Shown: one piece after another, positions 6,235 to 40,746 of the stretch
Layout: every line of letters starts with the position of its first letter
Numbering within the stretch: the first letter of the stretch is position 1
Assembly: GCA_026709365.1 (NCBI GenBank)
Contig: JAPOTD010000050.1
Span: 1-40,820 of the forward strand
Origin: Gammaproteobacteria bacterium
Lineage (GTDB): Bacteria > Pseudomonadota > Gammaproteobacteria > Pseudomonadales > Azotimanducaceae
DNA: 40,820 nucleotides
Direction: 5' to 3'
Made by a program: the position numbers and the translations under genes
Notes under the pieces: generated by a model
Database searches by the model: none
What the model saw: only the letters and a program-made list of their open reading frames with translations
Told to the model about the DNA's origin: nothing

Positions 6235-6262
6235 TTGGCAATCCGTCAAGAGTGACTATAAT
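6235..6262 (+). promoter_or_regulatory. Sigma70-type promoter of the first TonB receptor
   Basis: TTGGCA (6235-6240) and TATAAT (6257-6262) are separated by 16 bp. The predicted transcript would start near 6269, giving a leader of about 46 bases before the receptor ATG at 6315. This is the best-matching promoter in the window. Confidence 0.65.
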
Positions 6263-6314
6263 CGCCGCCTTTGGCCCACAGACTTGCAAAACCAATGACG
6301 CCAAGGAGTTGAAC

Positions 6315-8720: not shown

Positions 8721-8764
8721 GAGGTTCTGAGACGAGGAGGCAATTTGACAACCTGCACAAGGTT

Positions 8765-8793
8765 ACCCGTAGCGCTCCAAGCGCCGCACGGGT
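8765..8793. repeat. Stem-loop between the two TonB receptor genes
   Basis: ACCCGT (8765-8770) pairs with ACGGGT (8788-8793), with inner GCGC/GCGC arms that could extend the stem. No T-run follows on either strand, so it is more likely an mRNA processing or stabilising structure than an intrinsic terminator. Confidence 0.4.
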
Positions 8794-8843
8794 ATCCTTC
8801 GAGCATCTTAGTTGAACGCTTTAATCCATTGGAGGGGAGAACC

Positions 8844-11294
8844 ATGCGAAAGCCGTTGCCGACTCTGGCGTTGCTGGCCTGCTTTGTGGCGGCAACGCCT
8901 GCGAGCGTCCTTGCCGCTGAAGGCGAGGTCATCGAAGAGATCATCGTCACCGCCCGCCAGCAAGCGGAAACCTTGCAGGACGTGCCGGTCACCATCGCCG
9001 CCCTGACCGAGGCAGACCTGGACCGCTACAACATCACCAATCTGGTGGACGCCGCCAAGATGGTGCCCAACATGGTGATCTCGCACGGCGGCTCCGGCAA
9101 CGGCTCAATCCTCAGGCTGCGCGGCATCGGCTCCAGTTTCATTTCAGCCGCCTTTGACCACTCCGTGGCCATCAACCTTGATGGCGTGGTGGTGAACCGG
9201 GGCCGATTCGTACACAACTCCTACATGGACATGGGCCAGTTGGAAGTTCTCAAGGGTCCGCAGTCCCTCTACTTCGGCAAGTCGGCCACCGCCGGCGTGG
9301 TATCGATCACCACCAACGATCCCGGCGACGAGTTTGAGATGGAGGCCAGCGGCGGCTATGAAACCGAACACGCGGGCATCTTCTCCGAATTCATCATCTC
9401 CGGCCCCCTAACCGACACCTTGGGTGCCCGCTTTGCCGCGGGCTACACCAAGAACGATGAGCTCTTCCACAACTATTCCGCGAGGAACGATGCCGCAAAC
9501 GCACCCATAACCGGGGCGGACGAATGGTACGGCGACGAGTCCCTGAACACGCGCCTCACCTTGGTGTGGGATCCGAGCGACACCTTTCAAGCCAAGCTCA
9601 AGTACAGCTATTCCGAGTACGACAACGAAGGCGCCGGCACGGCTTGGGCCGAGGAAGTCTGTCCCGAGGGCCGTCAGCAGCCCACGGCCATTCCTTCTGC
9701 AACAGCGGTTTTCGGCGTCTATCGAGGCGTGGACGACTGCAAGCTCAACGGCAACACCTCCAAACTGAACCTCCACCCTGGCCTGCGTGGCGGGTTGCCC
9801 AAGGGCTATGACGACGGCGAGCCTGGTCTGGACCAGGAAACCCACTTTCTGTCCCTGCGCATGGATTGGGACATAAACCCCGCTTTGACCATCACATCCG
9901 TCACCGGATGGGTGGATCTGCAGCATTGGGAGCTTGATGACTACAGCTACGGCGCCAGCGTTTTCGGCGGCCTGCACAACAACATCTACAAGAGCCTGTC
10001 GCAAGAGTTCCGCTTCGCGAGCAACTTGGACGGCCCCCTGAACTTTCAAGCCGGGCTGTTCTATCAGGACATCGAGCAGGAATTCGACGCCTACCAGTAC
10101 GCGTTCAATGCGCCGCTGCTGCCAAACATCTTCGGTCCAGCCTACGCCTTGGTTGGCGGCGACCCGGCGGCCATGATCATCGGCCCTGACCCGGTCACTG
10201 GATGGGAATACGACTACAACAAGCATCACTTTCTGGACACGGAAGTGTACTCGGTGTTCCTGGCCGCCTATTGGGACCTCAACGAACGCACTGAGATCAC
10301 CGCAGGCCTGCGCTACACAGACGAGGAAAAGGACGGGCGCATCGAGATTCCCTACCTCCATGCGGCAGCGATTCTGTTCGGCTGGGGCGCACCGCCCGTC
10401 ATCGACGAAGGCTTGGAATTCAAGGACGACCACCTCTCTCCCGAGGTGGCCATCAACTACTACCTCAACGACGACGTCAGCGTCTTCCTAGCCTACAAGC
10501 AAGGCTTCAAGTCCGGCGGCATTGACAACAGCGCCCTGCCGACGGCCGCTCTGCAGCCCACCAACCCGGAGTTCCCAGGCTTCCTGATCTACGAATCCGA
10601 AGAGGCCGAGGGCTTTGAAGCCGGCCTCAAGGGCCGCTTCATGGACGGCGCCCTGCGGCTGAACGCGACGGCGTTCACCTACGAGTACTCCGACCTTCAG
10701 GTGCAACTCTTCGATTCCTCGATCATCCAGTTCAGCACCTTCAATGCATCAGCCCTTGAAACCGAAGGCGTTGAATTCGATGCGCAGTGGAACACCGGCA
10801 TTGAAGGGCTGACCCTACGCGGTTCTTGGGCATGGACAGACACCTCCTACACCGAGGACTTCATCAACGCGACGGGCCAAAACCTCAAGGGCCAAGACGC
10901 CGCCGGCAACGCTGATTTCACCGGATACATCGGCGCCTCCTACGACTTGGCGGTCGGCAACGACTGGCGGCTCAGCCTGTCAGCCGATGCTCGTTACACC
11001 GGCGACTACGGATACACCGCTACGTTGGATCCATTCAAGCAGGACAGCTTCTGGGTTCTCGATACAGCCATCAGCCTGTTTTCGGAAGACGGTCGGCATC
11101 AGTTCAATCTGATCGGACGCAACGTGACCGACGAGATTTACGTCGTTAGCGGCGGTGCCATACCGGGCCGCTGCCCCAACTTCAATCCGGGACCGCCACC
11201 TAGCTGCAACGACACTGGCCCCAACAGCCTCGACCAAGCGGCGACCACGCCACTAGGCCGGACTTTCAGCCTGCAGTACCGTTACACGCTCTAA
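8844..11294 (+). CDS. TonB-dependent outer-membrane receptor (paralog 2)
   Basis: This 816-residue receptor has the same architecture as its upstream neighbour: signal peptide cleaved near VLAA, TonB box EEIIVTAR, a plug with LKGPQSLYFGKSATAGVVSI, and a barrel ending FSLQYRYTL. GGAGGGG lies 6 bases before ATG 8844. Large blocks are identical in both proteins (for example YKQGFKSGGIDNSALPTAAL and FNASALET). Differences cluster in likely loops: an extra Gly/Ala/Met-rich piece before GPDPVTG and a Cys-Pro-rich insert near the C-terminus. The genes are tandem, about 120 bases apart, with no clear promoter between them, so a gene duplication with shared transcription is likely. Confidence 0.95.
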   Translation: MRKPLPTLALLACFVAATPASVLAAEGEVIEEIIVTARQQAETLQDVPVTIAALTEADLDRYNITNLVDAAKMVPNMVISHGGSGNGSILRLRGIGSSFISAAFDHSVAINLDGVVVNRGRFVHNSYMDMGQLEVLKGPQSLYFGKSATAGVVSITTNDPGDEFEMEASGGYETEHAGIFSEFIISGPLTDTLGARFAAGYTKNDELFHNYSARNDAANAPITGADEWYGDESLNTRLTLVWDPSDTFQAKLKYSYSEYDNEGAGTAWAEEVCPEGRQQPTAIPSATAVFGVYRGVDDCKLNGNTSKLNLHPGLRGGLPKGYDDGEPGLDQETHFLSLRMDWDINPALTITSVTGWVDLQHWELDDYSYGASVFGGLHNNIYKSLSQEFRFASNLDGPLNFQAGLFYQDIEQEFDAYQYAFNAPLLPNIFGPAYALVGGDPAAMIIGPDPVTGWEYDYNKHHFLDTEVYSVFLAAYWDLNERTEITAGLRYTDEEKDGRIEIPYLHAAAILFGWGAPPVIDEGLEFKDDHLSPEVAINYYLNDDVSVFLAYKQGFKSGGIDNSALPTAALQPTNPEFPGFLIYESEEAEGFEAGLKGRFMDGALRLNATAFTYEYSDLQVQLFDSSIIQFSTFNASALETEGVEFDAQWNTGIEGLTLRGSWAWTDTSYTEDFINATGQNLKGQDAAGNADFTGYIGASYDLAVGNDWRLSLSADARYTGDYGYTATLDPFKQDSFWVLDTAISLFSEDGRHQFNLIGRNVTDEIYVVSGGAIPGRCPNFNPGPPPSCNDTGPNSLDQAATTPLGRTFSLQYRYTL

Positions 11295-27786: not shown

Positions 27787-28051
27787 TTAGGGAGCCTCTG
27801 ATTAAGTCCCGTTCGTTCAGCGCTTCACTGCTTGAGGATGGAAATAACCCCGCGATGATGGAGCGCAACATCCTCGGGCGGAGCGGAATTCGGGCCGCGG
27901 GCGTCGTGAAGCGCCCTTCGGGAGCGCCTGTGGGGTGCGCTGGCGGCGTTGCGGCTCATTGTGTGGGGCCTGCCACACGGCTTCGCCGCGCCTTGCCAGC
28001 ACACCCCACAGGCCGCTCTGAACTTCCGGGACTTAGTCAGAGGCTCCTTAG
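27787..28051. mobile_element. MITE-like element with TTAG target duplication
   Basis: Left end 27791-27811 and right end 28027-28047 are terminal inverted repeats matching at 20 of 21 positions; each begins GGAGCCTCTGA. They are flanked by TTAG (27787-27790 and 28048-28051), a 4-bp target duplication of the YTAR kind known for IS5-type elements. The 257-bp body has no transposase; it contains a nested inverted repeat (27927-27944 with 27995-28012, 17 of 18) and so can fold into one long hairpin. Its parent transposase is not in the window. Confidence 0.8.
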
Positions 28052-28097
28052 AGATTCATCGGATGCATTCTGCGGCATTGCCGCACGATCAGCAAGA

Positions 28098-28180
28098 CGC
28101 GCACCCGCGAGGCGGGCGCGTTGGCGTTTCGCGGCGCGAAACCCCGCTACCGTTGCGCGGGTCAGGTTCCGAATTGTTTG
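28098..28180 (-). repeat. Two-hairpin intergenic repeat, copy A
   Basis: Read on the minus strand: leader CAATTCGGAACCTGACCCG, hairpin 1 with arms GGGGTTTCGC / GCGAAACGCC (28136-28145, 28123-28132, one mismatch), then hairpin 2 GCGCCCGC / GCGGGTGCGC (28098-28120). A further perfect palindrome TGCGGCATTGCCGCA lies beside it at 28071-28085. It lies between the MITE-like element and the sprT-like gene. Confidence 0.75.
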
Positions 28181-28242
28181 CGAGCCTGCACAGACTGCTG
28201 CGGCAGGCCTCGGCTTGAGAGCGCGGCCTGACAGCCCATCGT

Positions 28243-28941
28243 ATGATGGCTTCCATGACCCGCCGCCCCTACCCTCCCATCACTGCCGACTTCCCCGGCG
28301 CCGCCTATCCGGTGGGCAGCCGAGTGCGCTTTGAGCATGGCGGCAGCGCCATCACTGGCACCGTCGCTTCCCTGAAGCGCCGCCAAGCGCTGGTCCACAG
28401 CAGCCAAGGACGTTGGAACGTGCCTTACGGTCTATTGGAACTGGTGGAGCGCTCGGTGGCCGGCGACTGTTCACTGGCCGAAACGGAAACGCTGGCCAAC
28501 GAACTCCTCAGGCATCACAAGGCCGCCAGCGGCTTGGGCAACGAGTGGCGCTTCGGCTTCGACCTCGCCCCTTCACGGGCTGGCGTCTGCAAGTATGGTG
28601 AGCGGCGTATCGACCTCTCGGTGAGCTTCTGCCTCCGGGCCAGCCGGGCGGAGCTCACCGACACCATCCTGCACGAGATCGCCCATGCCATCGTCGGCAA
28701 GGCGCACAACCATGACGCTGTCTGGGCCGACAAGGCGCGCGAGATCGGCTGCACCGGCGAGCGCACCCATGCGGTACGCCACACCGCAGCCCGCTGGGCC
28801 GGGGAGTGCGGCTGCGGAAAGCGCTGGTTTCGCCAGCGCCTAAGCCGCAAGATCGCCAACGGGGCGCGTTGCCCCAAGTGCCAAGGCGAAATTCGCTGGC
28901 AGCGCCACGACGGTGAAGTGAGCGCGCCACCTCCCAAGTAG
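28243..28941 (+). CDS. SprT-like zinc metalloprotease-domain protein
   Basis: This 232-residue protein has an N-terminal small beta domain (GSRVRFEHGGSAITGTVASL, about 26-45), a SprT-like domain with the zinc site HEIAH at 144-148 and a third ligand in HNHDAVW near 157, and a C-terminal zinc ribbon (Cys189, Cys191, Cys210, Cys213). SprT/Spartan relatives degrade DNA-protein crosslinks in eukaryotes; bacterial SprT is poorly known. It is longer than E. coli SprT because of the N-terminal domain. A second start is the ATG at 28255. It lies in the insert between era and recO, on the opposite strand. Confidence 0.85.
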   Translation: MMASMTRRPYPPITADFPGAAYPVGSRVRFEHGGSAITGTVASLKRRQALVHSSQGRWNVPYGLLELVERSVAGDCSLAETETLANELLRHHKAASGLGNEWRFGFDLAPSRAGVCKYGERRIDLSVSFCLRASRAELTDTILHEIAHAIVGKAHNHDAVWADKAREIGCTGERTHAVRHTAARWAGECGCGKRWFRQRLSRKIANGARCPKCQGEIRWQRHDGEVSAPPPK

Positions 28942-29051
28942 CTGTCAGAGGAACCCATCCGGGGGGCAGCGCCTTCTTGGCATCACCCCCCCGTTTCGCG
29001 GTTTCGAGATCGAATGCGACCGGGTTCCAATCCCCAACCCGTTCAAAGTAG

Positions 29052-29079
29052 GTCCGCACGATGCCCCTTCTGTGCGGAC
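29052..29079. terminator. Perfect 8-bp hairpin between convergent genes
   Basis: GTCCGCAC (29052-29059) pairs with GTGCGGAC (29072-29079) around a 12-base loop. It lies between the convergent sprT-like and era genes and may terminate either; no T-run follows. Confidence 0.4.
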
Positions 29080-29082
29080 TCA

Positions 29083-29158
29083 GAAACATATCGAACTAGC
29101 CTGAGCTGCGAGCGCGGAGTTTCGCGCAGCGAAACTCCATCCGCGACCGTCAGGTCGC
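29083..29158 (+). repeat. Two-hairpin intergenic repeat, copy B
   Basis: Leader GAAACATATCGAACTAGCC, hairpin 1 GGAGTTTCGC / GCGAAACTCC (29116-29125, 29129-29138, perfect, 3-base loop), then hairpin 2 GCGACC / GGTCGC (29143-29148, 29153-29158, perfect, 4-base loop). It lies between the sprT-like gene and era. Confidence 0.8.
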
Positions 29159-29231
29159 ACCTTCTCAGTTTCCATGAACCAGTTGGGATTCTCCTGACTG
29201 AGGACGCATTCCAACAGACCGTTCGAGGGTG

Positions 29232-30134
29232 TCAACGTCTCCCATCGAGACCTAGGCTGCGCAGCGCGGCGGGGCTGTCCGACCAGCCGCTGCGCACCTT
29301 CACCCAGAGATGCAGCATGACCTGGCGGCCCAGCATGCGTTCGATGTCCAGGCGCGCCTCCCGACCGATGGACTTGAGCTTGCCGCCGTCCTTGCCGATG
29401 ACGATGCGCTTCTGGCCAGCGCGCTCGACCAGGATTTGCGCGTGGATGTCCACCACCGCCGAGCCTTCATTGAAGGACTCCACCACCACTGCGGTCCGAT
29501 GCGGCAATTCATCGCCCAACCGGCGCATGAGCTTTTCGCGGATCAGCTCGCCGGCCAGAAAACGCTCGCTTTCGTCGGTGAGCTGGTCGGCGGCAAAGAG
29601 GTGCGGCCCCGCGGGCAGGCTTCGGAACACCAACGCGCGAAACTCGGCAACGCCCTCGCCGCCCAAGGCCGAGACCGGCATGATTTCCGCAAACAGGCCC
29701 GTGGCGCCAAGCCGTTCCATCGCCGGCAGCAAGCGGGTCTTGTCGCTCAGCAGGTCAATCTTGTTGATGAGCGCGAACGCAGGCTTCTCCGCCCACTCAA
29801 CTTGCCGGATGACCCACTCATCGCCATCGGTCAGGCGGTCACGGTCGAGCACCAGGACAATCAGGTCGGCATCGCCGAAGGCCGCCCTGGCGTGACCCAC
29901 CATGCTGCGGTTGATCGCCCGCTTGACGCGCCGGTGCAGACCCGGCGTATCGACGTAGATCGCCTGGCCTGCGCCTTCGGTGTCAATGCCGATGAGGTTG
30001 CGTCGGGTGGTCTGCGGCTTGCGGGAGGTGATGCTGAGCTTCTCGCCAAGCACCCGGTTCAGCAGGGTGGACTTGCCGACGTTGGGCCGTCCGACAATGG
30101 CAACGGTGCCGCAGCGATCAGTCCCCTTCGTCAT
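29232..30134 (-). CDS. era: GTPase Era
   Basis: This 300-residue ribosome-assembly GTPase has G1 GRPNVGKST at 15-23, the G2 region QTTRRN, DTPG, NKID and the VSA G5 motif, followed by a C-terminal KH domain with VIGKDGGKLKSIG. It binds 16S rRNA near its 3' end. The start overlaps the rnc stop by 17 bases. Upstream codons open to 30347 are rnc sequence in another frame. Its usual downstream partner recO is displaced. Confidence 0.97.
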   Translation of the reverse strand: MTKGTDRCGTVAIVGRPNVGKSTLLNRVLGEKLSITSRKPQTTRRNLIGIDTEGAGQAIYVDTPGLHRRVKRAINRSMVGHARAAFGDADLIVLVLDRDRLTDGDEWVIRQVEWAEKPAFALINKIDLLSDKTRLLPAMERLGATGLFAEIMPVSALGGEGVAEFRALVFRSLPAGPHLFAADQLTDESERFLAGELIREKLMRRLGDELPHRTAVVVESFNEGSAVVDIHAQILVERAGQKRIVIGKDGGKLKSIGREARLDIERMLGRQVMLHLWVKVRSGWSDSPAALRSLGLDGRR

Positions 30135-30822
30135 CGGCCTCGATCCGGTCGAGCAGTTCGGCGGCCGCGCGCTTTTCCGCCTCCTTGCGGCTGGCGCCCT
30201 CCGCCGTTGCCGAAAGCCCCAGCTCAGCGACTTCGCAGGAGACAATGAAGCGCGGCGCATGCCGTGCGCCGGCCTCCTCCACGATTCGGTAAACCGGCAG
30301 GGGCAAGGCCCGCCCTTGAGCAAACTCCTGCAACGCCGACTTGGCATCCTTGGCCTGCGCTGCCGTCAAGCCGGTCAGCCGGTCGCCGAGCAAGTGAACC
30401 ACAAGCGCCCGGGCCGCCTCCACGCCGCCATCCTCATGCACGGCGCCGATGAGGGCTTCAACCCCATTGGCTAGGACGGACGCACGGCGAAAGGCACCGG
30501 AACGCATCTCGCCGATGCCGAAGCGCATGGGGTCGCCCAAGGCCAGCGCATGGCCAATCTCCGCCAACGTGCCCTGCTGGACCAGCGCCGCCCGGGCCAG
30601 CGTCAGGCCGCTCTCCGCCTCGCCGGGATGCTCTCGATGCAGGTGGGCGGCGACGACGTAGCCGAGCACCGCATCGCCGAGGTACTCCAAACGCTCGTTG
30701 TTGCCGTCCGGCGAAACGCTCTTGTGGGTCAGGGCGCGAATGAGCAGGCGCTCATCGGCAAATCGATAGTTCAGCGCGCGTTGCAATCGATCAAGCTGCG
30801 CGGCACTGGGGCGGTCAGCCAC
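30118..30822 (-). CDS. rnc: Ribonuclease III
   Basis: This 234-residue double-strand-specific RNase has signature NNERLEYLGDAVLG at 41-54 (Glu43 and Asp50 as metal ligands), the second acidic site near 117-126 (VLANGVEALIG; Glu122), and a C-terminal double-strand RNA-binding domain (DAKSALQEFAQG, then AEGASRKEAEKRAAAELL). The Asp that E. coli has at 114 appears as Asn119 here. It overlaps lepB by 8 bases and era by 17, typical of a coupled lepB-rnc-era operon. Confidence 0.96.
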   Translation of the reverse strand: MADRPSAAQLDRLQRALNYRFADERLLIRALTHKSVSPDGNNERLEYLGDAVLGYVVAAHLHREHPGEAESGLTLARAALVQQGTLAEIGHALALGDPMRFGIGEMRSGAFRRASVLANGVEALIGAVHEDGGVEAARALVVHLLGDRLTGLTAAQAKDAKSALQEFAQGRALPLPVYRIVEEAGARHAPRFIVSCEVAELGLSATAEGASRKEAEKRAAAELLDRIEADDEGD

Positions 30823-31669
30823 GGATGAGGGCGGCTGCGGCTTGGTTCAGGCCGGGTGTACCGGAGCCGGGCTGCGCCGCCGTCCGCGTCAGCCATTGGT
30901 TGCGCCCAAAGGTCGGCAGCTTGAAGCCGGGCTCCTTGTGTACCCAAATGGCAACCGCCTTGCCGACGATCTTGGCTTCGGACACGTACTTCCAACGGCG
31001 GCTGTCGTCGCTGCGGTCGCGGTTGTCCCCCATCACGAAGTAGGCACCCTCGGGCACCGTCCACTCGCCGTTGCGGTCGCCGACCGGATAGCGATGGGTG
31101 GTGTGCGTCCCGCCGCCCAAGGACTCCTGGTAGGCTCGAACCGGCACTGCGGCACCGCCAATGACGTCATAGAACTCGCGCACGAACTCATACTCCGCCC
31201 GTTCGCCGTTGATGTGCAGCGCCTTGTCCTCATAACGGATGCGGTCGCCGGGCAGGCCGATGACCCGCTTGATGAAGTAGCGCGAGTCGTGGGGGGGGAT
31301 GAACACCATGATGTCGCCCCGTTGCGGCTCACCGACCTCGATGATCTTGGTGCCGAGCACCGGCAGGCGGATGCCGTAGGCGTACTTGTTGACCAGAATG
31401 AAGTCGCCCACCTCCAAGGTGGGCAACATGGACTCGGAAGGTATCTGGTAGGGCTCGGCGAGGAAGCTGCGCAGAGCCAGCACCAGCAGCAGAACCGGAA
31501 AGAAGGAGCGGGCGTACTCGACGACCATCGGCTCCTTGTCCGGCTGCTCCGCGTCCTGCGCGGAGCGCGCCGCCAAGCGACGCGGCTTCAGCACCCAAGC
31601 GTCCAGCAGCCAGATGCCCCCGCTGATCAGCACGGCCCAAGTGAGCACCAAGGGAAAGTCGATGTTCAT
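30815..31669 (-). CDS. lepB: Signal peptidase I
   Basis: This 284-residue inner-membrane serine protease has an N-terminal transmembrane segment (VLTWAVLISGGIWLLDAWVL), a second at about 53-71, catalytic Ser80 in PSESMLPT, Lys134 in KRVIGLPGD and the box VMGDNRDRSDDSR. It removes signal peptides from exported proteins, including the many predicted in this window. It lies downstream of lepA with about 90 bases between and overlaps rnc. Confidence 0.97.
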   Translation of the reverse strand: MNIDFPLVLTWAVLISGGIWLLDAWVLKPRRLAARSAQDAEQPDKEPMVVEYARSFFPVLLLVLALRSFLAEPYQIPSESMLPTLEVGDFILVNKYAYGIRLPVLGTKIIEVGEPQRGDIMVFIPPHDSRYFIKRVIGLPGDRIRYEDKALHINGERAEYEFVREFYDVIGGAAVPVRAYQESLGGGTHTTHRYPVGDRNGEWTVPEGAYFVMGDNRDRSDDSRRWKYVSEAKIVGKAVAIWVHKEPGFKLPTFGRNQWLTRTAAQPGSGTPGLNQAAAALIRG

Positions 31670-31761
31670 GCCCTATTGTATCCTGCCGATCCGCATCCTT
31701 CGCCGCGCTGCTGGCGCTGCGGGTTGCCCGGCAACCCGATCAAGCCGCCGCGGGCGGTGCG

Positions 31762-33555
31762 CTAGCGTTCAACCTTGAGCGCGGCGAGAAACGCATCCTG
31801 GGGGATCTCCACCCGGCCGAGCTGCTTCATGCGCCGCTTGCCCGCCTTCTGCTTTTCCAAGAGCTTCTTCTTGCGCGTGACGTCGCCGCCATAGCACTTG
31901 GCGGTGACGTTCTTGCGCAGCGCCTTGACGGTCTGGCGAGCCACGATCTGGCCGCCGACGGCAGCCTGAATGGCGACATCGAACAGTTGCCTCGGAATCA
32001 GCTCCTTCATCTTCTCCGCCAACTGGCGGCCACGGCTCTGGGCTTGGCTGCGATGCACGATCATCGCCAACGCATCGACCCGCTCGCCATTGATGAGCAT
32101 GTCGAGCTTGACCAGGTTGGACGCCTCGAAGCGGTCGAAGCCGTAGTCCAAGGACGCAAAGCCGCGGCTGACGGACTTCAGCTTGTCGAAGAAGTCCATC
32201 ACCACTTCGCTCATGGGCAGCTCCCAGGTCATCGACACCTGGCCGGATGAGAACTGCATGCTCCTCTGCACCCCCCGCCGTTCAACGCAAAGGCTGATCA
32301 CATTGCCAACGTGGTCCTGGGGCGTGAGGATGTTGACGGCCGCAATCGGCTCGCGGACCTCGGCGAACTGGGGCGGCAACCGCGAGGGGTTGTCCACCCG
32401 GCTGGCCTTGCCGTCCACGCCAATCACTTCGTAAACCACCGTCGGCGCCGAGGTGATGAGGTTCAGGCCGTACTCCCGCTCCAGCCGCTCCTGCACGATC
32501 TCCATGTGCAGGAGGCCAAGAAAGCCGCAGCGAAACCCGAAGCCCAAGGCGTCGGAGGTTTCAGGCTCGTAGAACAGCGAGCCGTCATTCAGGCTCAGCT
32601 TGGCCAAGGCCTCGCGAAAGTCCTCGAACTGCTCGGAGGCGACCGGAAACAGGCCTGCGTAAACCTGCGGCTTCACCTCGGCGAAGCCGGGCAGCTGAAA
32701 CACCTCCTGATGCCGCGCAGGCGCGATCGTGTCGCCCACTGGGGCCCCGCGGATGTCCTTGATGCCGGCCACGATGAAACCCACTTCCCCGGCCGCCAGA
32801 CTTTCCGCCACTTGCCGTTTCGGCGTGAAGCAACCGACTTGATCGACGCCGTGAACCTGCCCCGTTGACTTGACCGCGATCCGATCCCCAGCCGCGACCC
32901 GGCCCGCCACCACCCGCACTAGGGAGACGATGCCGAGATAGTTGTCGAAACAGGAGTCGATGATCAGCGCCTGCAAGGGCGCATCCGGATCGGCGGCGGG
33001 CGGGGGAATGCGGCGCACCAAGCTGGCCAGCAGCTCCGGCACCCCAGCCCCGGTCTTGGCGCTGACCAACAGCGCGTCATCCGCCGGCAAGCCGATGATC
33101 TCCTCGATTTCACGCGCGGCGGCCGCGGGGTCGGCTTGGGGCAGGTCGATCTTGTTCAGCACCGGCAGCACTTCCAGCCCCTGTTCGATGGCCGTGTAGC
33201 AGTTGGCCACCGACTGCGCCTCCACGCCTTGGGCGGCATCCACGACCAGCAAGGCCCCTTCGCAGGCCGCCAAGGAGCGTGACACCTCGTAGGTGAAGTC
33301 CACATGCCCCGGCGTGTCGATGAAGTTGAGCTGGTAGGTGCGTCCGCCTTCGGCCCGGTAGTGCAGCCGAACGCTTTGCGCTTTGATGGTGATGCCCCGC
33401 TCACGCTCCAGATCCATGGAATCGAGCACTTGGTCGGCCATCTCCCGATCGGTCAGGCCGCCGCAGTGCTGGATCAGGCGGTCCGAGAGGGTTGATTTGC
33501 CGTGATCGATGTGGGCTATGATCGAGAAGTTGCGAATGTGGTCGGCGGTGGGCAA
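31762..33555 (-). CDS. lepA: Elongation factor 4
   Basis: This 597-residue back-translocating GTPase has AHIDHGKS at 14-21, [15 protein letters not shown] and the LepA-specific C-terminal domain with the lysine-rich [17 protein letters not shown]. It binds ribosomes and can reverse faulty translocation. The start used is a TTG at 33555, since the next downstream candidates would remove part of the P-loop; the conserved [10 protein letters not shown] starts at residue 7. The ribosome site is weak. Confidence 0.96.
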
Positions 33556-33644
33556 AACGGAGCGGCTTCCCTACTTGGGCGGACTCGACGGCGCCAACCC
33601 ACGGGCACCGATGCCGGCCACCAAGCTGCGCCCCGCCAAGGCGG

Positions 33645-35021
33645 TCACTCCGGAACGCTCAACGGCACGAAGGTCTGAACGCCGCCGCGCACGATCAGCA
33701 CCGGCACGCGCCGGCCTTTCGGCAGGGTCTTGGCGATCGCGCGGAAGGCCTGCTGGTTCTCGACTGTTTGATGGTTGAGGCGGGTGATGATGTCGCCGGC
33801 TCGAATGCCGGAGTCCGCAGCCGGGCCGGTTGACTGGACCACCCGCACGCCCCCCTTGAGCTCGAAGCGGCTGAGCGCCGCTTCCGGCACGTCCTCCAGC
33901 ACCAAGCCAAGGCTTGAGGGCTCGTCGGGAGTGCCTTGGCCGACGCTCCCCTCACCCTCAATGTCAGGCAGCTCGCCGACCTTGACCTTGAGCTTGAGGC
34001 GCTCGCCGCCGCGCATGACGGCCACGCCAACCTCGCTGTTCGCCGCGGTGCGGCCCACGTAGTGGGGCAATTCGCTGGAACGCTCGATGGGCTGGCCGTC
34101 GAATTCAATGATGACGTCCCCGGCCTGCAGCTCGCTTTGATCAGCCGGACCGCCCGGAGCCACTTCGCTGATGAGCGCGCCGTGGGGACGCTCCAAACCG
34201 AAGCTCTCCGCCAACTCGCGGCTGACTTCCTGGATGACGACGCCGAGCCAGCCTCTGGAAACCCTCCCACTGCTCTTGATCTGCTCGACCACCTCCATGG
34301 CCACGTCAATGGGTATGGCGAACGACACGCCCATGAAGCCGCCCGACCTGGAGTAGATCTGCGAATTGATGCCCACCACTTCGCCATCCAAGTTGAACAA
34401 CGGACCTCCGGAGTTGCCCGGATTGATGGCCACGTCGGTCTGGATGAAGGGCACGTAGTTCTCGTTCTGCTCCGTAGGCAGGCTGCGCCCCTTGGCGCTG
34501 ACGATGCCCGCGGTGACCGAGTAGTCGAAGCCGAACGGCGAGCCGATGGCCAGCACCCATTCGCCGACATCCAAGTCTTCGGAACGGCCCATGCGCACCG
34601 TCGGAAGGTTGTCAGCCTCCACCTTGAGCAAGGCCAGATCCGATCGCCGGTCGGTGCCCACCACCTCAGCTTTCAGTTCCCGCCGATCAGCGAAACGCAC
34701 CAGTATCTCGTCGGCATCCTCAACAACATGGTTGTTGGTCAGCACGTAGCCATCCTCGGAAATGACGAAGCCGGAGCCCAATGAACGCGGACGCACGCGG
34801 GGCGTTGGCGGCTGCTGCGGCGGGAACCGGCGGAAGAACTCCTCGATGCCGCGCCCGTCAAAGCGCCGGTCGCGCTCGTCCTGCCGCCGCGTGGTGCTGA
34901 CGTTGACCACCGCTGCGGCATTATCCTCCACCAATTCAGTGAAATCCGGCAGTTCGGCCGCAGCGCCAAAGCCCGCGGCCAGCAGCAACCCTGCTGTCGT
35001 CAATGCGATTCGTCGTATCAC
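33645..35021 (-). CDS. mucD: Periplasmic serine protease MucD/DegQ
   Basis: This HtrA-family protease of about 458 residues has a signal peptide, trypsin-like domain with LTNNHVVEDADE (His98), RSDLALLKV (Asp128) and INPGNSGGPLF (Ser204), then two PDZ domains. In Pseudomonas MucD restrains the AlgU response and degrades misfolded envelope proteins. The chosen GTG at 35021 follows AAGGA; the frame stays open to 35075. It is the last gene of the rpoE-mucABC-D group and precedes lepA by 89 bases. Confidence 0.95.
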   Translation of the reverse strand: MIRRIALTTAGLLLAAGFGAAAELPDFTELVEDNAAAVVNVSTTRRQDERDRRFDGRGIEEFFRRFPPQQPPTPRVRPRSLGSGFVISEDGYVLTNNHVVEDADEILVRFADRRELKAEVVGTDRRSDLALLKVEADNLPTVRMGRSEDLDVGEWVLAIGSPFGFDYSVTAGIVSAKGRSLPTEQNENYVPFIQTDVAINPGNSGGPLFNLDGEVVGINSQIYSRSGGFMGVSFAIPIDVAMEVVEQIKSSGRVSRGWLGVVIQEVSRELAESFGLERPHGALISEVAPGGPADQSELQAGDVIIEFDGQPIERSSELPHYVGRTAANSEVGVAVMRGGERLKLKVKVGELPDIEGEGSVGQGTPDEPSSLGLVLEDVPEAALSRFELKGGVRVVQSTGPAADSGIRAGDIITRLNHQTVENQQAFRAIAKTLPKGRRVPVLIVRGGVQTFVPLSVPE

Positions 35022-35064
35022 CAATCGTTCCTTCGCTTGTGGCGGTGAGTGAATGGATTGCAGG

Positions 35065-35382
35065 CTAGGAGCCAAGGCTTAAACGGAAGCGCCTGCCTCC
35101 GGCAACAACGCACAACAACGGCGCAGCACCTGCCAAGGCCCAGAACGGCTGGTCGTCGGCAAGGGCATAAGTGCCCGCAGCACTGCAAAGCAGCAGGAGC
35201 AGGGGCACGCCGAAGAACAGCAACGCCGCTTGGGCCAACCCTCGGTTGACGTCTTGCTGAGGCGAAACGCCGCCTCCCTCCGGATTGAGGTCATCCGGCA
35301 CCCGCCTTGGACCAAGGGCACACGGACAACCGACGCAACCACCTTGGCAAGCGGCAATCAGTTCGCTGCCTTGGCTGAACAT
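35065..35382 (-). CDS. Reduced MucC/RseC-like membrane protein
   Basis: This 105-residue protein sits where mucC/rseC lies in related genomes. It keeps the family outline: a clustered Cys motif near the N-terminus (Cys12, Cys16, Cys19, Cys21) and two hydrophobic segments (about 48-72 and 79-97), the first beginning AQAALLFFGVPLLLLL. It is shorter than the roughly 150-residue RseC of E. coli, lacking the opening beta segment and the C-terminal tail. RseC affects sigma-E activity and SoxR reduction. The identification rests on position and layout, not on clear sequence identity. Confidence 0.6.
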   Translation of the reverse strand: MFSQGSELIAACQGGCVGCPCALGPRRVPDDLNPEGGGVSPQQDVNRGLAQAALLFFGVPLLLLLCSAAGTYALADDQPFWALAGAAPLLCVVAGGRRFRLSLGS

Positions 35383-35397
35383 CGGCTGACGCCTGCT

Positions 35398-36387
35398 CTA
35401 GTCATGATACATTGACCGGGCAATCCTGCGCACCGTGGGCTCCGGCAACTCGCCGACCAACGTCACTTGGGCACGGCGCCCCAACGGGCCGGGGACGAAC
35501 TCGGTGACGGCAACGGTTGCGCCGCGGCGGGTGGCCGCCGCATGGGCCTTGGCTTGGGCGTGGCGCTCATCTTCAACATAGATGGAAAACGCCGCCAGAC
35601 CATCGGTGTACATTAGGGTGTTGACCATCTCGGCCCGGTTTTGGGGGTAGCAGACACTGGACGATGCCATGGAGAATCCAGCGGGTACCCAGCCTGCGCG
35701 CCACCGGACGCGAGCCTCGTCCGCATCCGCCTCAGCGCCCCCGGACTGCGCATCCACCGACGCCAAGGCCCCCTCGTGCCGACCCGGTTCCAGCGCCGAG
35801 GGATCAACCCCATCGCCAATCTCGATCTGCGTGAACTGAAAGACCTCCAAGCGCGAGCCGTGCCGGTCAACCAGTTCGGAACGCAGCAGCAAGCGGTGCT
35901 CAGGGTCCAGCCACAACCGGTGCCCGTAGCGGTCACTGTCGTTGGGCATCACGGCAACGCCCTGCGCCAAACGGCCGGCGACTCGGCCAACGCCAAGATC
36001 GGAGATGACGTAATGCTCTGAAACGCGGTCAAAGGGGCTGGTGAAGGCCCGGGCGAAGGGGCCTGACGCAATGCCGCGGCTGAGTTCCACCAGGTTGTCG
36101 CCCGGCATGAGCACCCGGGTGACCTCATTGCCCCGGCGAATGATCTCCCTCGGCGCCCCGTTCAGGTGCACCAAACGCTCCCGCTGCTCGCCATCCACGA
36201 CCATGTGGACAATGCGCAAGGTGGCGACATCCTGCCCAGTGAAGTAGCTGAACACGCCATCGTAGTTGAGGTCCATGAAGGCCCGGTTCATGTCCGCCAG
36301 CCAGCTCGGGGGAGCGCCCCAAGCCAAAGCCGGAGCCAACAAGCCCACGACCAGCCGCAAAACCACGCCAAGGCACATCAAGGTCAC
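35398..36387 (-). CDS. rseB: Sigma-E regulatory protein MucB/RseB
   Basis: This 329-residue periplasmic protein has a signal peptide (cleavage near AWGA) followed by the RseB large domain (FSYFTGQDVATLRIVHMVVD, then REIIRRGNEVTRVLMPGDN) and a smaller C-terminal domain. It binds the periplasmic part of MucA/RseA and blocks its cleavage until envelope stress is sensed. The start overlaps the mucA stop by 4 bases (ATGA-type), in keeping with cotranslation. Confidence 0.94.
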   Translation of the reverse strand: MTLMCLGVVLRLVVGLLAPALAWGAPPSWLADMNRAFMDLNYDGVFSYFTGQDVATLRIVHMVVDGEQRERLVHLNGAPREIIRRGNEVTRVLMPGDNLVELSRGIASGPFARAFTSPFDRVSEHYVISDLGVGRVAGRLAQGVAVMPNDSDRYGHRLWLDPEHRLLLRSELVDRHGSRLEVFQFTQIEIGDGVDPSALEPGRHEGALASVDAQSGGAEADADEARVRWRAGWVPAGFSMASSSVCYPQNRAEMVNTLMYTDGLAAFSIYVEDERHAQAKAHAAATRRGATVAVTEFVPGPLGRRAQVTLVGELPEPTVRRIARSMYHD

Positions 36388-36926
36388 TCCCGCTCGAAAG
36401 TCACGAGCTTGGCGAAGACGCCCACATCCGGCTGTTTGGCAGCCTTCTGCTGCATGTGGTGCAGCAGGTAAACGTCAACGTTGCGCGCTTCAGACGGTAG
36501 CTGGCCGGGCAGTGCCACGGGTGGATCCAAGTCGGTTGGACGGGCGGCGGACTCGGGCAGCGCCACCGGAGCCCGGTCACCGCCAAAGGTGGCCAAGTAG
36601 GTCGCGGCGACCATTGCCAAGGCAACCGCCGACACCGCGGCCCAAGCGGTCAATCGCCGTGCGTTCCACCGGTGCCCCGGCCCGGCTTGACGCACCGGGG
36701 AATCGGCGGCGGAAGCATCGCTCAGTCCAGCCCAAACCCGGTCCGCACGGTCTGGCCCCGCTGGCACAACATCGTTGTGGAGCGCGGCTGAAACCAGCTG
36801 CCAACGATTCCAGACCTTGCGCAACTCGGCGTCGCGCCGCACCTCATCAAGCACACGGCGAACTTCAAAGGCATTGGCCTCCCCGTCCATGACAGCGGAG
36901 AGCGACTCCCGCAATTGCTCTGACAT
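36384..36926 (-). CDS. rseA: Anti-sigma-E factor MucA/RseA
   Basis: This 180-residue inner-membrane protein has the RseA N-terminal domain that holds the sigma factor (SEQLRESLSAVMDGEANAFE), a single transmembrane segment (TAWAAVSAVALAMVAATYLA), then a periplasmic tail. ATG 36926 fits the family start; a TTG 33 bases upstream is less likely. It is separated from rpoE by an unusually long 334-base gap. Confidence 0.93.
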   Translation of the reverse strand: MSEQLRESLSAVMDGEANAFEVRRVLDEVRRDAELRKVWNRWQLVSAALHNDVVPAGPDRADRVWAGLSDASAADSPVRQAGPGHRWNARRLTAWAAVSAVALAMVAATYLATFGGDRAPVALPESAARPTDLDPPVALPGQLPSEARNVDVYLLHHMQQKAAKQPDVGVFAKLVTFERE

Positions 36927-37260
36927 GACCCTAGCCAACCATCCCGGCGCCCATTCCAAAGTCCATCCCAGTGAGAGCCTCCTTTCAAGCCCAAATTATA
37001 AGACCCAAATTGCGGCGCATGGTTCACCAGCGCCAGCGACTGCCGACACTGGTTTCAGCGCCGGGGAAGGAGGTTACCAAATCAAACCGCCTTTGTGCCC
37101 AATCACATTGTCCAAGGCCTGCACTTTGCCGGCCACCGCCATCGAGCAAGTCCCAGCAGGTGCGTTTCGCAGCGCCTGCGGAAACCGGCGCCCTTGCCTG
37201 GCCACCTTCGTCCCGTGCACCGCGGGTGCTCGCCCACTTGCCGGTCTATGCCTCGTTGGG
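36927..37260. promoter_or_regulatory. 334-base gap between rpoE and mucA with candidate promoter
   Basis: In many relatives these two genes nearly touch. On the minus strand GAACC (37025-37021) is followed after 17 bases by TCTTA, which resembles a sigma-E type promoter (GAACTT, 16, TCTGA), and TATAAT lies at 37000-36995. A strong AAGGAGG is followed by a short frame of 11 codons (ATG 36970 region to TAG) ending 4 bases before the mucA ATG. No longer gene was recognised. Confidence 0.4.
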
Positions 37261-37839
37261 CTATCGGTCCAACAAGTGGCCGATGCGACGATCCACCGCT
37301 TCCCGGGCACGGAAGATGCGCGAACGCACCGTGCCCAGCGGGCACTCCATGATGACGGCGATCTCCTCGTAGGTTAGCCCCTCGAACTCCCGCAGGGTGA
37401 GTGCGCTGCGCAGATCATCAGGCAAGGACGCCACGGCTTGCTCTATCGCTTCGGCCAGCTCGTCCCTGGAGGCCGCCGCTTCCGGACCCTCGGCTTCAAC
37501 GAGCCGACCCCCGCCGTCCATGGACTGGGCCTCCTCGGCGGCAATGTCCACGCCCGGCGGACGTCGGCTCTTCGCGATCTGGTGGTTGTGCGCGGTGTTG
37601 ATCGCGATGCGGTAAAGCCAAGTGTAGAACGCACTGTCGCCACGGAACTTGGAAAGGGCGCGAAAAGCCCTGATGAATGCCTCCTGGGCCACATCCTCGA
37701 CGTCCTCCGGATTTCGGATATGGCGCGCGACCAAGCTGCGGATCTTTTGCTGATGGCGTCCGAAGAGCAAATTGAATGCGGCTCGGTCACCCTGCTTGAC
37801 GCGGGACACCAACTCCTTGTCCGTCTCGTCTGCGCTCAT
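37261..37839 (-). CDS. rpoE: RNA polymerase sigma-E factor (RpoE/AlgU)
   Basis: This 192-residue ECF sigma factor has region 2 (PEDVEDVAQEAFIRAFRAL, FYTWLYRIAINTA) and region 4 (LPDDLRSALTLREFEGLTYE, CPLGTVRSRIFRARE). It directs the envelope-stress regulon and is held at the membrane by MucA with MucB. ATG 37839 gives the usual AlgU/RpoE length. It is divergent from nadB with 399 bases between, which hold repeat copy C and a set of short direct repeats. Confidence 0.96.
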   Translation of the reverse strand: MSADETDKELVSRVKQGDRAAFNLLFGRHQQKIRSLVARHIRNPEDVEDVAQEAFIRAFRALSKFRGDSAFYTWLYRIAINTAHNHQIAKSRRPPGVDIAAEEAQSMDGGGRLVEAEGPEAAASRDELAEAIEQAVASLPDDLRSALTLREFEGLTYEEIAVIMECPLGTVRSRIFRAREAVDRRIGHLLDR

Positions 37840-37908
37840 TGCCGACCCCAAACCGCACTGCTGTTGCGGGCGGCATTGTGCTCGCAAACGGCGGCGCTTG
37901 CCAGACTG

Positions 37909-37997
37909 CGCCTCTCGCCCAAGGGGCGAGAGGCGGTTGGAGTTTCGCTGGCGCGAAACTCCGCACCCGTTGCTTGGGTCAAGTTCCGATATGTTTC
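37909..37997 (-). repeat. Two-hairpin intergenic repeat, copy C
   Basis: Read on the minus strand: leader AAACATATCGGAACTTGACC, hairpin 1 GGAGTTTCGC / GCGAAACTCC (37953-37962, 37939-37948, perfect, 4-base loop), then hairpin 2 CGCCTCTCGCCC / GGGCGAGAGGCG (37909-37920, 37924-37935, perfect 12 bp, 3-base loop). It ends 69 bases upstream of the rpoE ATG and reads towards rpoE. Confidence 0.82.
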
Positions 37998-38115
37998 TTA
38001 GGCCCGCGCACCGAACGCGGCCCCTCGGCATGGGAGCGGACTGGAGTCTGGCCGTCACGAAATCCCGCCCCAAGCAGCGCAGGCGTTTTTCCGGCTTAAG
38101 CCGGATGGATGTTAG

Positions 38116-38157
38116 TCTTCACGAAGCGCCATTCACGAAGCATCATTCACGAAGCAT
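38116..38157. repeat. Three 14-bp direct repeats upstream of nadB
   Basis: TCTTCACGAAGCGC, then CATTCACGAAGCAT twice without gap (38116-38129, 38130-38143, 38144-38157), about 80 bases before the nadB start. The first is partly palindromic around CTTC-AC-GAAG. They could be an operator array or simple repeat drift. Confidence 0.55.
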
Positions 38158-38238
38158 CATGGGGGAAACCACGGTTGGCTGTTGATCGAGCACCGCAAAC
38201 GGCTTGCGAAGGATGGCTTCAACGAGGTTTGACGGCTT

Positions 38239-39864
38239 ATGACCCAACGATTCCCCACTGACGTTCTCATCATTGGCGGCGGCGCGGCCGGCCTGTCCGC
38301 GGCACTGAGCTTGGCGCCGGACGCTCGGGTGACCGTGCTCTGCAAGGACCGGGCTGAGGCCAGCGCCTCCCAATGGGCCCAGGGCGGCGTGGCGGCGGTA
38401 ACGGACCCGGAGGACAGCATCGAGGCCCACTGCCGGGACACCATCACCGCCGGCGCCGGGCTTTGCGATGGGGAGATCGTCCAGTTCACGGTCTCCCAAG
38501 CAAGCCGAGCGGTCGATCGCCTGCGCAGCCGGGGCGTGACGTTCGACTCGGTGGGCAACGAACTGGACCTGACCCGCGAAGGCGGCCATTCGTTTCGGCG
38601 CATCCTGCACGTGGCGGATGCCACCGGAGCGGCCGTCGTGGCCACCCTGACCGAGCGCGCGCTGGACCACCCCAACGTCGAGCTGTTCAACGACCGGGTG
38701 GCCATCGACCTGATCAACCTAAGCAAGCTGGGCCGTCACGGCAACCGCTGCGCCGGAGCCTATGTCCTCAACCGCAGCACCGGGCGGGTTGAGGTGTTCC
38801 AAGCCCGTTTCGTGGTGCTGGCTACCGGCGGCGCTAGCAAGGTGTACCTATATACCAGCAACCCGGACGGCAGCACCGGAGATGGCATCGCCATGGCTTG
38901 GCGGGCGGGCTGCCGCATCGCCAACATGGAGTTCATCCAGTTCCACCCCACCTGCCTCTACCACCCGCACGCCAAGTCGTTCCTGATCTCCGAAGCCGTG
39001 CGCGGCGAGGGCGGCGTGCTGACGCTGCCGGACGGCGCCCGCTTCATGCCCAACTTTGATGCCCGGGCGGAACTCGCGCCGCGGGACATCGTGGCCCGGG
39101 CCATCGACCATGAGATGAAGCGCTTGGGCGCGGACAGCGTCTTCATCGACATCAGCCATCGACCCAAGGATTTCGTCGAGGAGCGCTTCCCAACCATCGC
39201 CCGACGCTGCCGGGAACTTGGCTACGACATCACGCAGGAGGCGGTGCCCGTAGTGCCAGCGGCCCACTACACCTGCGGCGGCGTCGTGGTGGACGGAACT
39301 GGCCGCACCGACATCCCCGGCCTGTACGCCATCGGTGAAGTGGGCTGCACGGGCCTGCACGGCGCCAATCGGCTGGCCAGCAACTCCCTGCTCGAATGCC
39401 TGGTGTTCGCAGATGCCGCCGCCGAAGCCATTCGTGCACAGCTTGACCATTCCCACACCGCTGTCGAGCCCCCCCAATGGGACGAAAGCCAAGTCACGGA
39501 TTCCGACGAGGACGTGGTCATCGCCCACAACTGGGACGAACTGCGCCGCTTCATGTGGGACTACGTGGGCATCGTGCGCACCAACAAGCGCCTGCAGCGG
39601 GCCCTGCACCGCGTCAACCTGCTCAAGCAGGAGGTCCACGAGTACTACAGCCACTACCGGGTGAGCAACGACTTGATCGAGCTGCGCAACCTGATCGACG
39701 TCGCCGACCTCATCATCCGCTCGGCGCTGCTGCGCCGCGAAAGCCGTGGCCTGCACTTCAACTTGGACTACCCGGAAACAGCGACCGAGGCCAAGGACAC
39801 CATCCTGTTCCCTGGTTCGATTGAGCATCTCGACCTGATGCGGCCCCAAGCGGAACAGCGGTAG
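38239..39864 (+). CDS. nadB: L-aspartate oxidase
   Basis: This 541-residue FAD enzyme has a dinucleotide motif (GGGAAGLS at 13-20), the active-site region [23 protein letters not shown] and a C-terminal helical domain. It oxidises aspartate to iminoaspartate in NAD synthesis. The pairing with divergent rpoE and convergent sdhE-cptA is conserved in Gammaproteobacteria. GAGG lies 11 bases upstream of the ATG. Confidence 0.96.
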
Positions 39865-39877
39865 CCCGCAACCCCGG

Positions 39878-40204
39878 CTATTGGTCCTCGGAGCAGGCGG
39901 CCTTCAAGTCCCGGCGCAGGCGGGCGAACGCCTGCGCACTGACTTCGTCGCGATAGACCCGCATGGTTCGGCCAAAAAAGCGGGGGGCTCCCCCATTCCA
40001 AGTGACGCAGAAGCGGGACAGGCGCACCCAACGCACTGGCTGGGGAAATTCCAAGTCAATATCCGCGGACGGGCGCAGCAGCCACAGCCAGAGCGCCATC
40101 AGCGCCCCTCCGGCATTGCCAAACCAAGTCCATCCGCCAGCCACCGCAACGGCGAACTGGGCAACCCAAACCGACCAGCGCAGACGGGCGGGCAGCAACG
40201 TCAT
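39878..40204 (-). CDS. CptA/YgfX-like inner-membrane protein
   Basis: This 108-residue protein has two N-terminal hydrophobic segments (WVAQFAVAVAGGWTWFGNA, then ALMALWLWLL) and a short cytoplasmic domain (FCVTWNGGAPRFFGRTMRVY), as in YgfX. It overlaps sdhE by 4 bases (ATGA), the standard sdhE-ygfX arrangement. In E. coli the protein affects cell shape via MreB and FtsZ, but that role is not certain here. Confidence 0.82.
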   Translation of the reverse strand: MTLLPARLRWSVWVAQFAVAVAGGWTWFGNAGGALMALWLWLLRPSADIDLEFPQPVRWVRLSRFCVTWNGGAPRFFGRTMRVYRDEVSAQAFARLRRDLKAACSEDQ

Positions 40205-40458
40205 GGCTGATCCCGGCCAAAGCGCCGGATCAGGCCGACAATGCGGGCCAAATGCGGCTCGTCAGGTTCGGACCGGCCCTGAAGCCAATCGTGGAGCTGC
40301 CAGTCCTCCCTCTCCAGAAGCCGGGCATAGGCTTGCCGGTCCGCGTCCGGCAACGCCTTGAAGCCGCGCTCGAAAAACGGCACCAACTTGAGTTCGACTT
40401 CGGTCAGACCCCGACGGCTGCGCCAGTAAAGGGCGCCGATTGCCTCCTTCCCTGCCAT
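40201..40458 (-). CDS. sdhE: Succinate dehydrogenase flavinylation factor SdhE
   Basis: This 85-residue protein has the RGxxE motif (YWRSRRGLTEVELKLVPFFE), which is needed for attaching FAD to SdhA, and a typical helical tail (LLEREDWQLHDWLQG). Start 40458 follows GGGAG by 7 bases; the frame extends further upstream into repeat E. It is cotranslated with the CptA-like gene. Confidence 0.92.
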   Translation of the reverse strand: MAGKEAIGALYWRSRRGLTEVELKLVPFFERGFKALPDADRQAYARLLEREDWQLHDWLQGRSEPDEPHLARIVGLIRRFGRDQP

Positions 40459-40529
40459 GTGCAAACTCCCATCCATCACGCCGTCCGGGCTTAAGGCGCG
40501 CATCGGCCGTCTTGCCGCCCAACGGACCC

Positions 40530-40580
40530 GGAGTTTCGCGCCAACCCAACCCCAAGCGCAGCGGCGCAGTGGGTGCGCCA
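40530..40580 (+). repeat. Two-hairpin repeat, truncated copy E
   Basis: GGAGTTTCGC (40530-40539) is followed by GCC and a partly matching AACCCAACCCC tail, with the GCGAAACTCC arm missing. It lies in tandem, same orientation, just upstream of copy D. Confidence 0.55.
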
Positions 40581-40591
40581 CCTAAGCGGGC

Positions 40592-40673
40592 TAAGATACA
40601 TTTCGAAGCTTGGCCCAAGCCAAGTGCGCAGAGTTTCGCGCCAGCGAAACTCCAACCCACCCGCTTCGCGGGT
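40592..40673 (+). repeat. Two-hairpin intergenic repeat, copy D
   Basis: Leader AAGATACATTTCGAAGCTTG, hairpin 1 GAGTTTCGC / GCGAAACTC (40631-40639, 40644-40652), then hairpin 2 ACCCGC / GCGGGT (40659-40664, 40668-40673). The leader itself can form CTTGGC / GCCAAG. It lies upstream of sdhE in the opposite orientation. Confidence 0.8.
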
Positions 40674-40746
40674 GCGCCTGTGCAGGTGCCACACTCGTGC
40701 ACTATCCGGAGATACCATGCACTGGAGACTGGATGGTCAGGTCTGC

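Follow-up and report, generated by a model that had tools for sequence, protein, structure and literature searches.

A Two-Hairpin Repeat Adjoining Promoters in an Azotimanducaceae Genome and Its Possible Origin as a Mobile DNA Element

Introduction

What kind of element is the two-hairpin repeat that recurs in contig JAPOTD010000050.1 of the draft genome GCA_026709365.1 (Gammaproteobacteria bacterium; Pseudomonadales, Azotimanducaceae), and what places its copies where they lie? The window, meaning the whole stretch of 40,820 nt analyzed here, is part of a 3.70-Mb draft of 144 contigs that is 95.7% complete (hereafter, the own genome). A sequence-only reading of the window had described four copies and a truncated fifth, each with a leader and a shared hairpin, and had proposed either a repetitive extragenic palindrome (REP) or bacterial interspersed mosaic element (BIME) moved by a REP-associated tyrosine transposase (RAYT), or a regulatory or stabilizing RNA motif. 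Across the genome, the repeat is structured and consistently oriented, adjoins promoters, and is present or absent beside promoters that stand in either case. The reading that we favor, with confidence that is evenly balanced, is that of a non-autonomous mobile DNA-hairpin element of ∼95 bp that docks upstream of promoters.

Copy Number and Structure of the Repeat

The exact pattern of the first hairpin (HP1) occurs at 152 places in the own genome and at none when the pattern is reversed as a control, and the form of HP1 with a three-base loop occurs at 142 places with up to 3 mismatches, such that the further copies anticipated by the sequence-only reading are present. Of the 152 exact copies, 96 were examined, and the 17 that lack a following AA or AT were excluded. 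Oriented copies, defined as HP1 with at most 2 mismatches followed by AA or AT, number 116 among the fetched loci of the own genome and the window, degenerate ones included. The element comprises a leader of ∼46 bp, HP1 (a 10-bp stem with a GNA or GNNA loop), A[A/T] with usually 0–2 further bases, and a second hairpin (HP2) with a stem of about 6–13 bp.

Upstream sequence suffices for the assessment of a leader in 114 copies, of which 88 have one resembling GTGCGGGCTCAGAAACATATCGGAATCTGACCCAAGCAACGAGCGC (none of the 114 when shuffled); in related genomes, 10 of 54 copies have it. The element thus exists in two forms, with and without the leader. The start is sharp, falling at leader base 1–3 in 72 of the 88 leader copies; the frequent 5′ truncation of retroposition was dropped as an explanation for this reason, and the leader length of about 35 bp given earlier becomes about 46 bp. 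A third hairpin, within the leader, was also dropped, as pairing there (77.1%) does not exceed that of shuffled sequence (78.2%). Leader sequences diverge strongly among copies, and HP1 is far more conserved than the leader, in part through the selection of copies, HP1 being the search key.

A perfect HP2 stem of at least 6 bp is found in 78 of 94 copies, compared with 1.8 in dinucleotide shuffles, which together with the HP1 counts upholds the proposal of a dispersed, structured family. There are 19 distinct HP2 5′ arms, the commonest being CGCGCCCGC, CGCCTCTCGCCC, CGCGACC, and CGCACCCGC. The covariation that had been claimed for this stem holds within one length class (CCCGC/GCGGG), where 162 of 168 flanking cells are paired (mean 150.5 and maximum 157 in 1000 shuffles), but the variety of HP2 is mostly replacement among a few recurring modules. 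Another copy directly follows in 12 of the 109 copies with HP2, in head-to-tail arrangement at a spacing of about 90 bp, and among neighboring pairs 30–300 bp apart, 18 of 19 are head-to-tail and 1 is inverted.

The features of the window are given below, with reference to the related genomes G137, G033, G057, and G092, the last of which belongs to the genus of the own genome.

28100-28190, minus strand: copy A, whole element
28146..28190, minus strand: copy A, leader
28123..28145, minus strand: copy A, HP1 with one mismatch
28100..28120, minus strand: copy A, HP2
28061..28095, minus strand: promoter-like block immediately following copy A (TTGCTG, 17 bp, CAGAAT), kept in G137, where the element is absent
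29073-29158, plus strand: copy B, whole element
29073..29115, plus strand: copy B, leader
29116..29138, plus strand: copy B, HP1
29143..29158, plus strand: copy B, HP2
37909-38010, minus strand: copy C, whole element
37963..38010, minus strand: copy C, leader
37939..37962, minus strand: copy C, HP1
37909..37935, minus strand: copy C, HP2
37871..37905, minus strand: rpoE upstream block after copy C, kept in G137, G033, and G057 without the element
40530..40547, plus strand: decayed copy at the sdhE site, a single arm (HP1 5′ arm and part of the loop)
40585-40674, plus strand: copy D, whole element
40585..40629, plus strand: copy D, leader
40630..40653, plus strand: copy D, HP1
40658..40674, plus strand: copy D, HP2
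40679..40707, plus strand: putative promoter after copy D, found by eye, any downstream gene lying beyond the window end

With a profile built from 79 copies, copies A–D score 71.6–84.4 bits (partly by construction, A–D being among the 79), and the best match in the window that is not a copy scores 8.1 bits; the four copies are where they had been reported. The shared HP1 stem requires amendment, as the arms of copy A are GGGGTTTCGC/GCGAAACGCC with 1 mismatch and differ from the stem given earlier. Of the truncated fifth copy, only the single arm at 40530-40547 is retained (8.0 bits, E 0.34 with the same profile), and it is accepted because G057, G033, and G137 hold fuller copies at the same place adjacent to sdhE. 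Copy B breaks the promoter rule described below: the gene that follows it lies on the other strand, in a region where a sprT-like gene and era converge. By eye, the stretch that contains copy B (28942-29231, after the sprT-like gene) aligns in part to a longer stretch of G137 (L178) and looks decayed.

Placement Beside Promoters

Promoter adjacency was evaluated in the 97 copies that have HP2 and no tandem copy following. HP2 commonly ends 2–8 bp before the −35 of sigma70-like promoters in the same orientation as the element. A −10-like TANNNT is found 20–36 bp past HP2 in 46 of these 97 copies, as compared with 14.0 (maximum 25) in mononucleotide shuffles and 8.2 (maximum 16) in dinucleotide shuffles, and with 4, 11, and 4 of 97 when equally wide windows at 0–16, 37–53, and 52–68 bp are examined. 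TANNNT counts peak at offsets 25–29 after HP2 (7, 7, 9, 6, and 6), and TTG peaks at offsets 2–8 (49 occurrences). Applied to the other flank of the element, the TANNNT test shows no excess (9 of 92 as compared with 11.3 in shuffles). Copies with the leader show the signal in 38 of 76 cases (10.7 shuffled, maximum 20). Judged from these motifs, the geometry after HP2 is that of a putative sigma70-type promoter starting directly past the element. A fixed insertion sequence such as TTGAC was rejected, as the TTG offset past HP2 ranges from 2 to 8, and the element as a supplier of the −35 was likewise rejected, as relatives without the element have the promoter.

Neighboring genes, called with a simple custom script, could be assessed for 75 copies whose surroundings were fetched: a downstream gene was called for 69 and none for 4, and 2 copies lie inside called genes, which limits to the window the earlier statement that all copies are intergenic. 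The downstream gene is on the strand of the element for 61 of the 69 (median distance 90 bp); counting neighboring copies once, this holds for 50 of 58 sites (p=1.6e-8). Among the 63 copies with both neighbors called, 31 lie between divergent genes, 26 run in the direction of their neighbors, 1 runs against them, and 5, including copy B, lie between convergent genes. Eight downstream proteins were scanned with NCBIfam, which names RpoH, ribosomal protein L28, AlaS, RpoZ, and GrpE; FtsK and a membrane pyrophosphatase (both fragments) fall below the cut-off, and YceD well below it. In the window, rpoE follows copy C. No single regulon is obvious among these genes and the further downstream genes that were inspected.

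Comparison With Related Genomes

For 12 element-bearing promoters, 45 of 48 possible comparisons with orthologs in the four relatives were made, those below 77% identity and one partial hit (L235) being dropped. The rpoE upstream block is kept without the element in all three testable relatives (G137, G033, and G057), the G092 contig being too short. The conserved block starts 0–11 bp past the end of the own HP2 in 42 of the 45 orthologous promoters, although the alignment could not begin earlier and conservation in relatives tends to end there as well; the stronger evidence is therefore that of the empty sites. These were sought in 46 comparisons, namely the 45 together with site A. Alignment on both flanks close to the element was obtained in 9, of which 2 are clean, both against G137: at site A and at the L141 dehydrogenase promoter, the gap closes within 0–3 bp and the own flank ends 49 and 47 bp before HP1, respectively. 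Less clean empty sites are found at rpoH (L012), alaS (L150), and grpE (L162).

At 8 of the 12 promoters, an HP1 copy that is adjacent and in this orientation is absent from all relatives compared. Some relatives do have an adjacent copy at ftsK, rpmB, grpE, and a zinc-dependent alcohol dehydrogenase (Zn-ADH) gene, with other HP2 modules or spacing. At the sdhE site, the HP2 of G057 differs from that of G033 and G137, the element is absent from G092 and G076, and a decayed half is what remains in the window; HP2 also differs among genomes at the ftsK, grpE, and Zn-ADH orthologs. From these alignments, some copies are inherited whereas others look new, and HP2 is either exchanged or re-acquired.

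Two other kinds of palindrome were noted. Upstream of ftsK in G057 (L206), a different long inverted repeat, seen by eye, precedes the conserved promoter block, and other palindromes may therefore also gather at promoter blocks of this type. Between the site A promoter block and a helix-turn-helix gene (HTH_3; antitoxin-like below the cut-off), a stretch of ∼263 bp (27788-28050) with 36-nt inverted ends that are 83% complementary is, by eye, absent at the same place in G137; a similar end sequence also occurs downstream of a copy in L158, and the stretch looks like a separate family of miniature inverted-repeat transposable elements (MITEs).

Strand Preference of the Hairpin Loops

RNA hairpins favor GNRA loops. 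In the 96 exact own copies, the HP1 loops on the element strand are GNA (45), GNYA (35), or GNRA (6), for a total of 86, whereas GNA or GNNA loops occur on the other strand in 1; the RNA-type GNRA thus accounts for only 6 of the 41 own GNNA loops. In relatives, such loops occur on the element strand in 40 of 47 copies and on the other strand in 0 of 47, and their HP2 loops show the same preference (29 of 47 as compared with 1 of 47). The HP1 loops are of DNA type, and an RNA motif is disfavored. Parts of a published study (PMC4686876) describe GNA and GNNA loops on G-C stems as unusually stable DNA mini-hairpins. Calculated folding energies of the DNA do not tell one strand from the other; the strand argument rests on the loop counts and this published stability.

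Distribution of the Repeat

Exact HP1 is present in 20 of 200 genomes of the family and in 3 of 37 genera: 6 of 9 genomes in the own genus (the own genome included), 4 of 9 in genus g7, and 10 of 16, with 1–2 copies each, in genus g37. A sample of the order contained 293 genomes, of which 12 were family members with the own genome alone positive, and exact HP1 was found in 0 of the 281 genomes from outside the family; in the samples searched within the order, the repeat is confined to one family. Among the matches listed beyond the order samples, a spirochaete draft of 1.7 Mb (JAIRZA) has 66 exact HP1 copies, 1–3 copies occur in each of eight other drafts (spirochaete, actinobacterial, or Lachnospiraceae), and two further gammaproteobacterial drafts have 1 and 2. 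In the JAIRZA loci that were printed (L056, L059, L062, L082, and L110), the surroundings of HP1 differ.

Copy C has no match in the plasmid and phage collections searched. Among the titles listed for the string GGAGTTTCGC in the literature, no title deals with a repeat of this kind, and, judged by titles and the starts of abstracts, no publication retrieved on palindromic repeats or insertions at promoters describes this placement.

Apart from the repeat, the window contains two adjacent TonB-dependent receptor genes (6252-11294) with stretches that are 72–81% alike, pointing to a tandem duplication.

Origin and Mobility of the Repeat

For a non-autonomous mobile element, the mechanism would have three parts. 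HP1 would fold into a hairpin on a single strand of the DNA, where a trans-acting enzyme would read it. Insertion would be aimed at the upstream edge of the footprint of RNA polymerase and its sigma factor rather than at a sequence, because the offset to the −35 varies by several bp. The effect on transcription would be mild or insulating, because the promoters of rpoH, alaS, rpoZ, ftsK, grpE, rpmB, and rpoE tolerate the element. That the element homes to sigma70 promoters through the edge of promoter-bound polymerase, with single-stranded insertion in one orientation, an exchangeable HP2, and an enzyme of its own kind still to be named as mobilizer, is a more specific proposal that we advance only tentatively. 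Targeted insertion and selective retention are inseparable with these data, and both may act.

Several observations weigh against mobility of this kind. The TANNNT signal is absent at the expected distance in 51 of the 97 copies, and is weaker in leaderless own copies (7 of 21 as compared with 3.1, maximum 9) and in relatives (13 of 47 as compared with 5.8, shuffle maximum 13). Conservation in relatives often stops near the −35 even without the element, and because of this insertion is not proved by the block starts at 42 of 45 promoters alone; as for the empty sites, 37 of the 46 comparisons gave no information. No consistent target duplication was seen, apart from a possible 3-bp CGG repeat at L141, and no transposase or other mobilizer was found. 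The own HP2 loops have no clear strand preference (GNA or GNNA in 25 of 86 as compared with 18 of 86 on the other strand), the DNA folding energies are equally indifferent to strand, and the conservation of the HP1 loops could be explained by common descent. Lastly, the divergence of the leaders indicates that amplification is not very recent.

The main rival holds that the repeat, whatever its origin, is a selected promoter insulator or cis-regulatory element, retained only where the promoter is shielded or tuned from just upstream of the −35, by a GC-rich hairpin or by a protein bound there. This is unlikely on balance, although it accounts for the sharp position and single orientation, for the greater conservation of HP1 (with the bias of copy selection noted above), and for the differing HP2 modules that stay paired at one site across genomes (sdhE). 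In addition, a hairpin ends at the conserved block in 8 of 45 promoters of relatives as compared with 7 of 124 control windows, and two of those 8 (rpoH in G137 and G033) are without HP1. The absence of an obvious regulon among the downstream genes seen, the 8 of 12 promoters at which no compared relative has an adjacent HP1 in the same orientation, and the HP1 loop length of 3 or 4, which is atypical of palindromes that are bound in double-stranded form, speak against this rival.

A repeat of REP/BIME type moved by a RAYT that has been lost from the genome or is missing from the assembly is improbable. Copy number, palindromes, and the single-strand loop preference agree with it, and the Y1 transposase domain (Y1_Tnp) is matched in 7 of the 10 family genomes that carry HP1, as compared with 1 of the 3 that do not; incompleteness of the own genome could also hide the gene. 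However, the RAYT search gave 0 Y1_Tnp matches in the own genome and none in G092, which has 33 HP1 copies, whereas G130 has 2 matches and no copy, and none of 15 fetched Y1 loci from other genomes contains HP1 within 3 mismatches. Like REPs, BIMEs, and REPINs (REP-derived hairpin doublets), the repeat is a short, many-copy palindrome with no genes of its own that is probably read as a single-stranded hairpin. Unlike them, with their conserved GTAG/CGTC tag, it has GTAG within 8 bases before HP1 in just 6 of 116 copies, has two different hairpins in fixed order, and does not occur predominantly in inverted pairs (1 of 19). Its position upstream of promoters, with 5 of 63 copies between convergent genes, also differs from that of published REPs, which according to a survey (PMC3733652) are mostly found near 3′ ends, with neighboring genes that converge or run in the same direction. 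RAYT movement, as first proposed, is accordingly not supported and was kept as a rival only. In relatives, RAYT-like genes at L122 and L125 are ringed by repeats that translate as EGGTPS in several frames, which suggests another REP family.

An RNA motif, or a terminator for upstream transcripts, is very improbable: RNA folding of copies B, C, and D is better than that of shuffles (z −2.8 to −4.9), but that of copy A is not (z −0.26), Rfam, at gathering thresholds, matches nothing in the window, the HP1 loops are GNYA rather than GNRA, no T run follows HP2 in the printed copies by eye (a −35-like sequence is there), and the element would not be part of the downstream transcript, because it is upstream of the promoter and in many cases has divergent genes on its two sides (31 of 57, counting copies for which both neighbors are called and the downstream gene shares the strand of the element).

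The mobile-element reading may also be set beside other known systems. MITEs are small non-autonomous insertions with terminal inverted repeats, target duplication, and empty sites in relatives. The present repeat shares the empty sites (2 clean in 46 comparisons), but its orientation is fixed to promoters, and neither a clear target duplication nor a terminal inverted repeat at its ends was seen, no systematic test for these having been made. The attC sites of integrons are recognized by their single-strand fold and are variable in sequence; variable sequence is shared here, as recognition of a single-strand fold would be, but no cassette is seen, no search for an integrase having been made. 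Correia repeat enclosed elements of Neisseria, as described in parts of a published account (PMC2649163), have an inverted repeat and can generate promoters. They are likewise small and non-autonomous and able to influence neighboring genes, but the promoters beside the present repeat exist in relatives without it, and the inverted repeat of Correia elements has no visible counterpart at its ends.

Implications

Whereas a published survey (PMC3733652) puts short palindromic repeats mostly at gene 3′ ends, the repeat described here stands against the −35, at core genes among others, in one orientation. This would be a case either of bacterial transposition guided by RNA polymerase or of a promoter insulator that is repeatedly acquired. 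The element could, furthermore, serve as a sequence guide to promoters in these uncultured bacteria.

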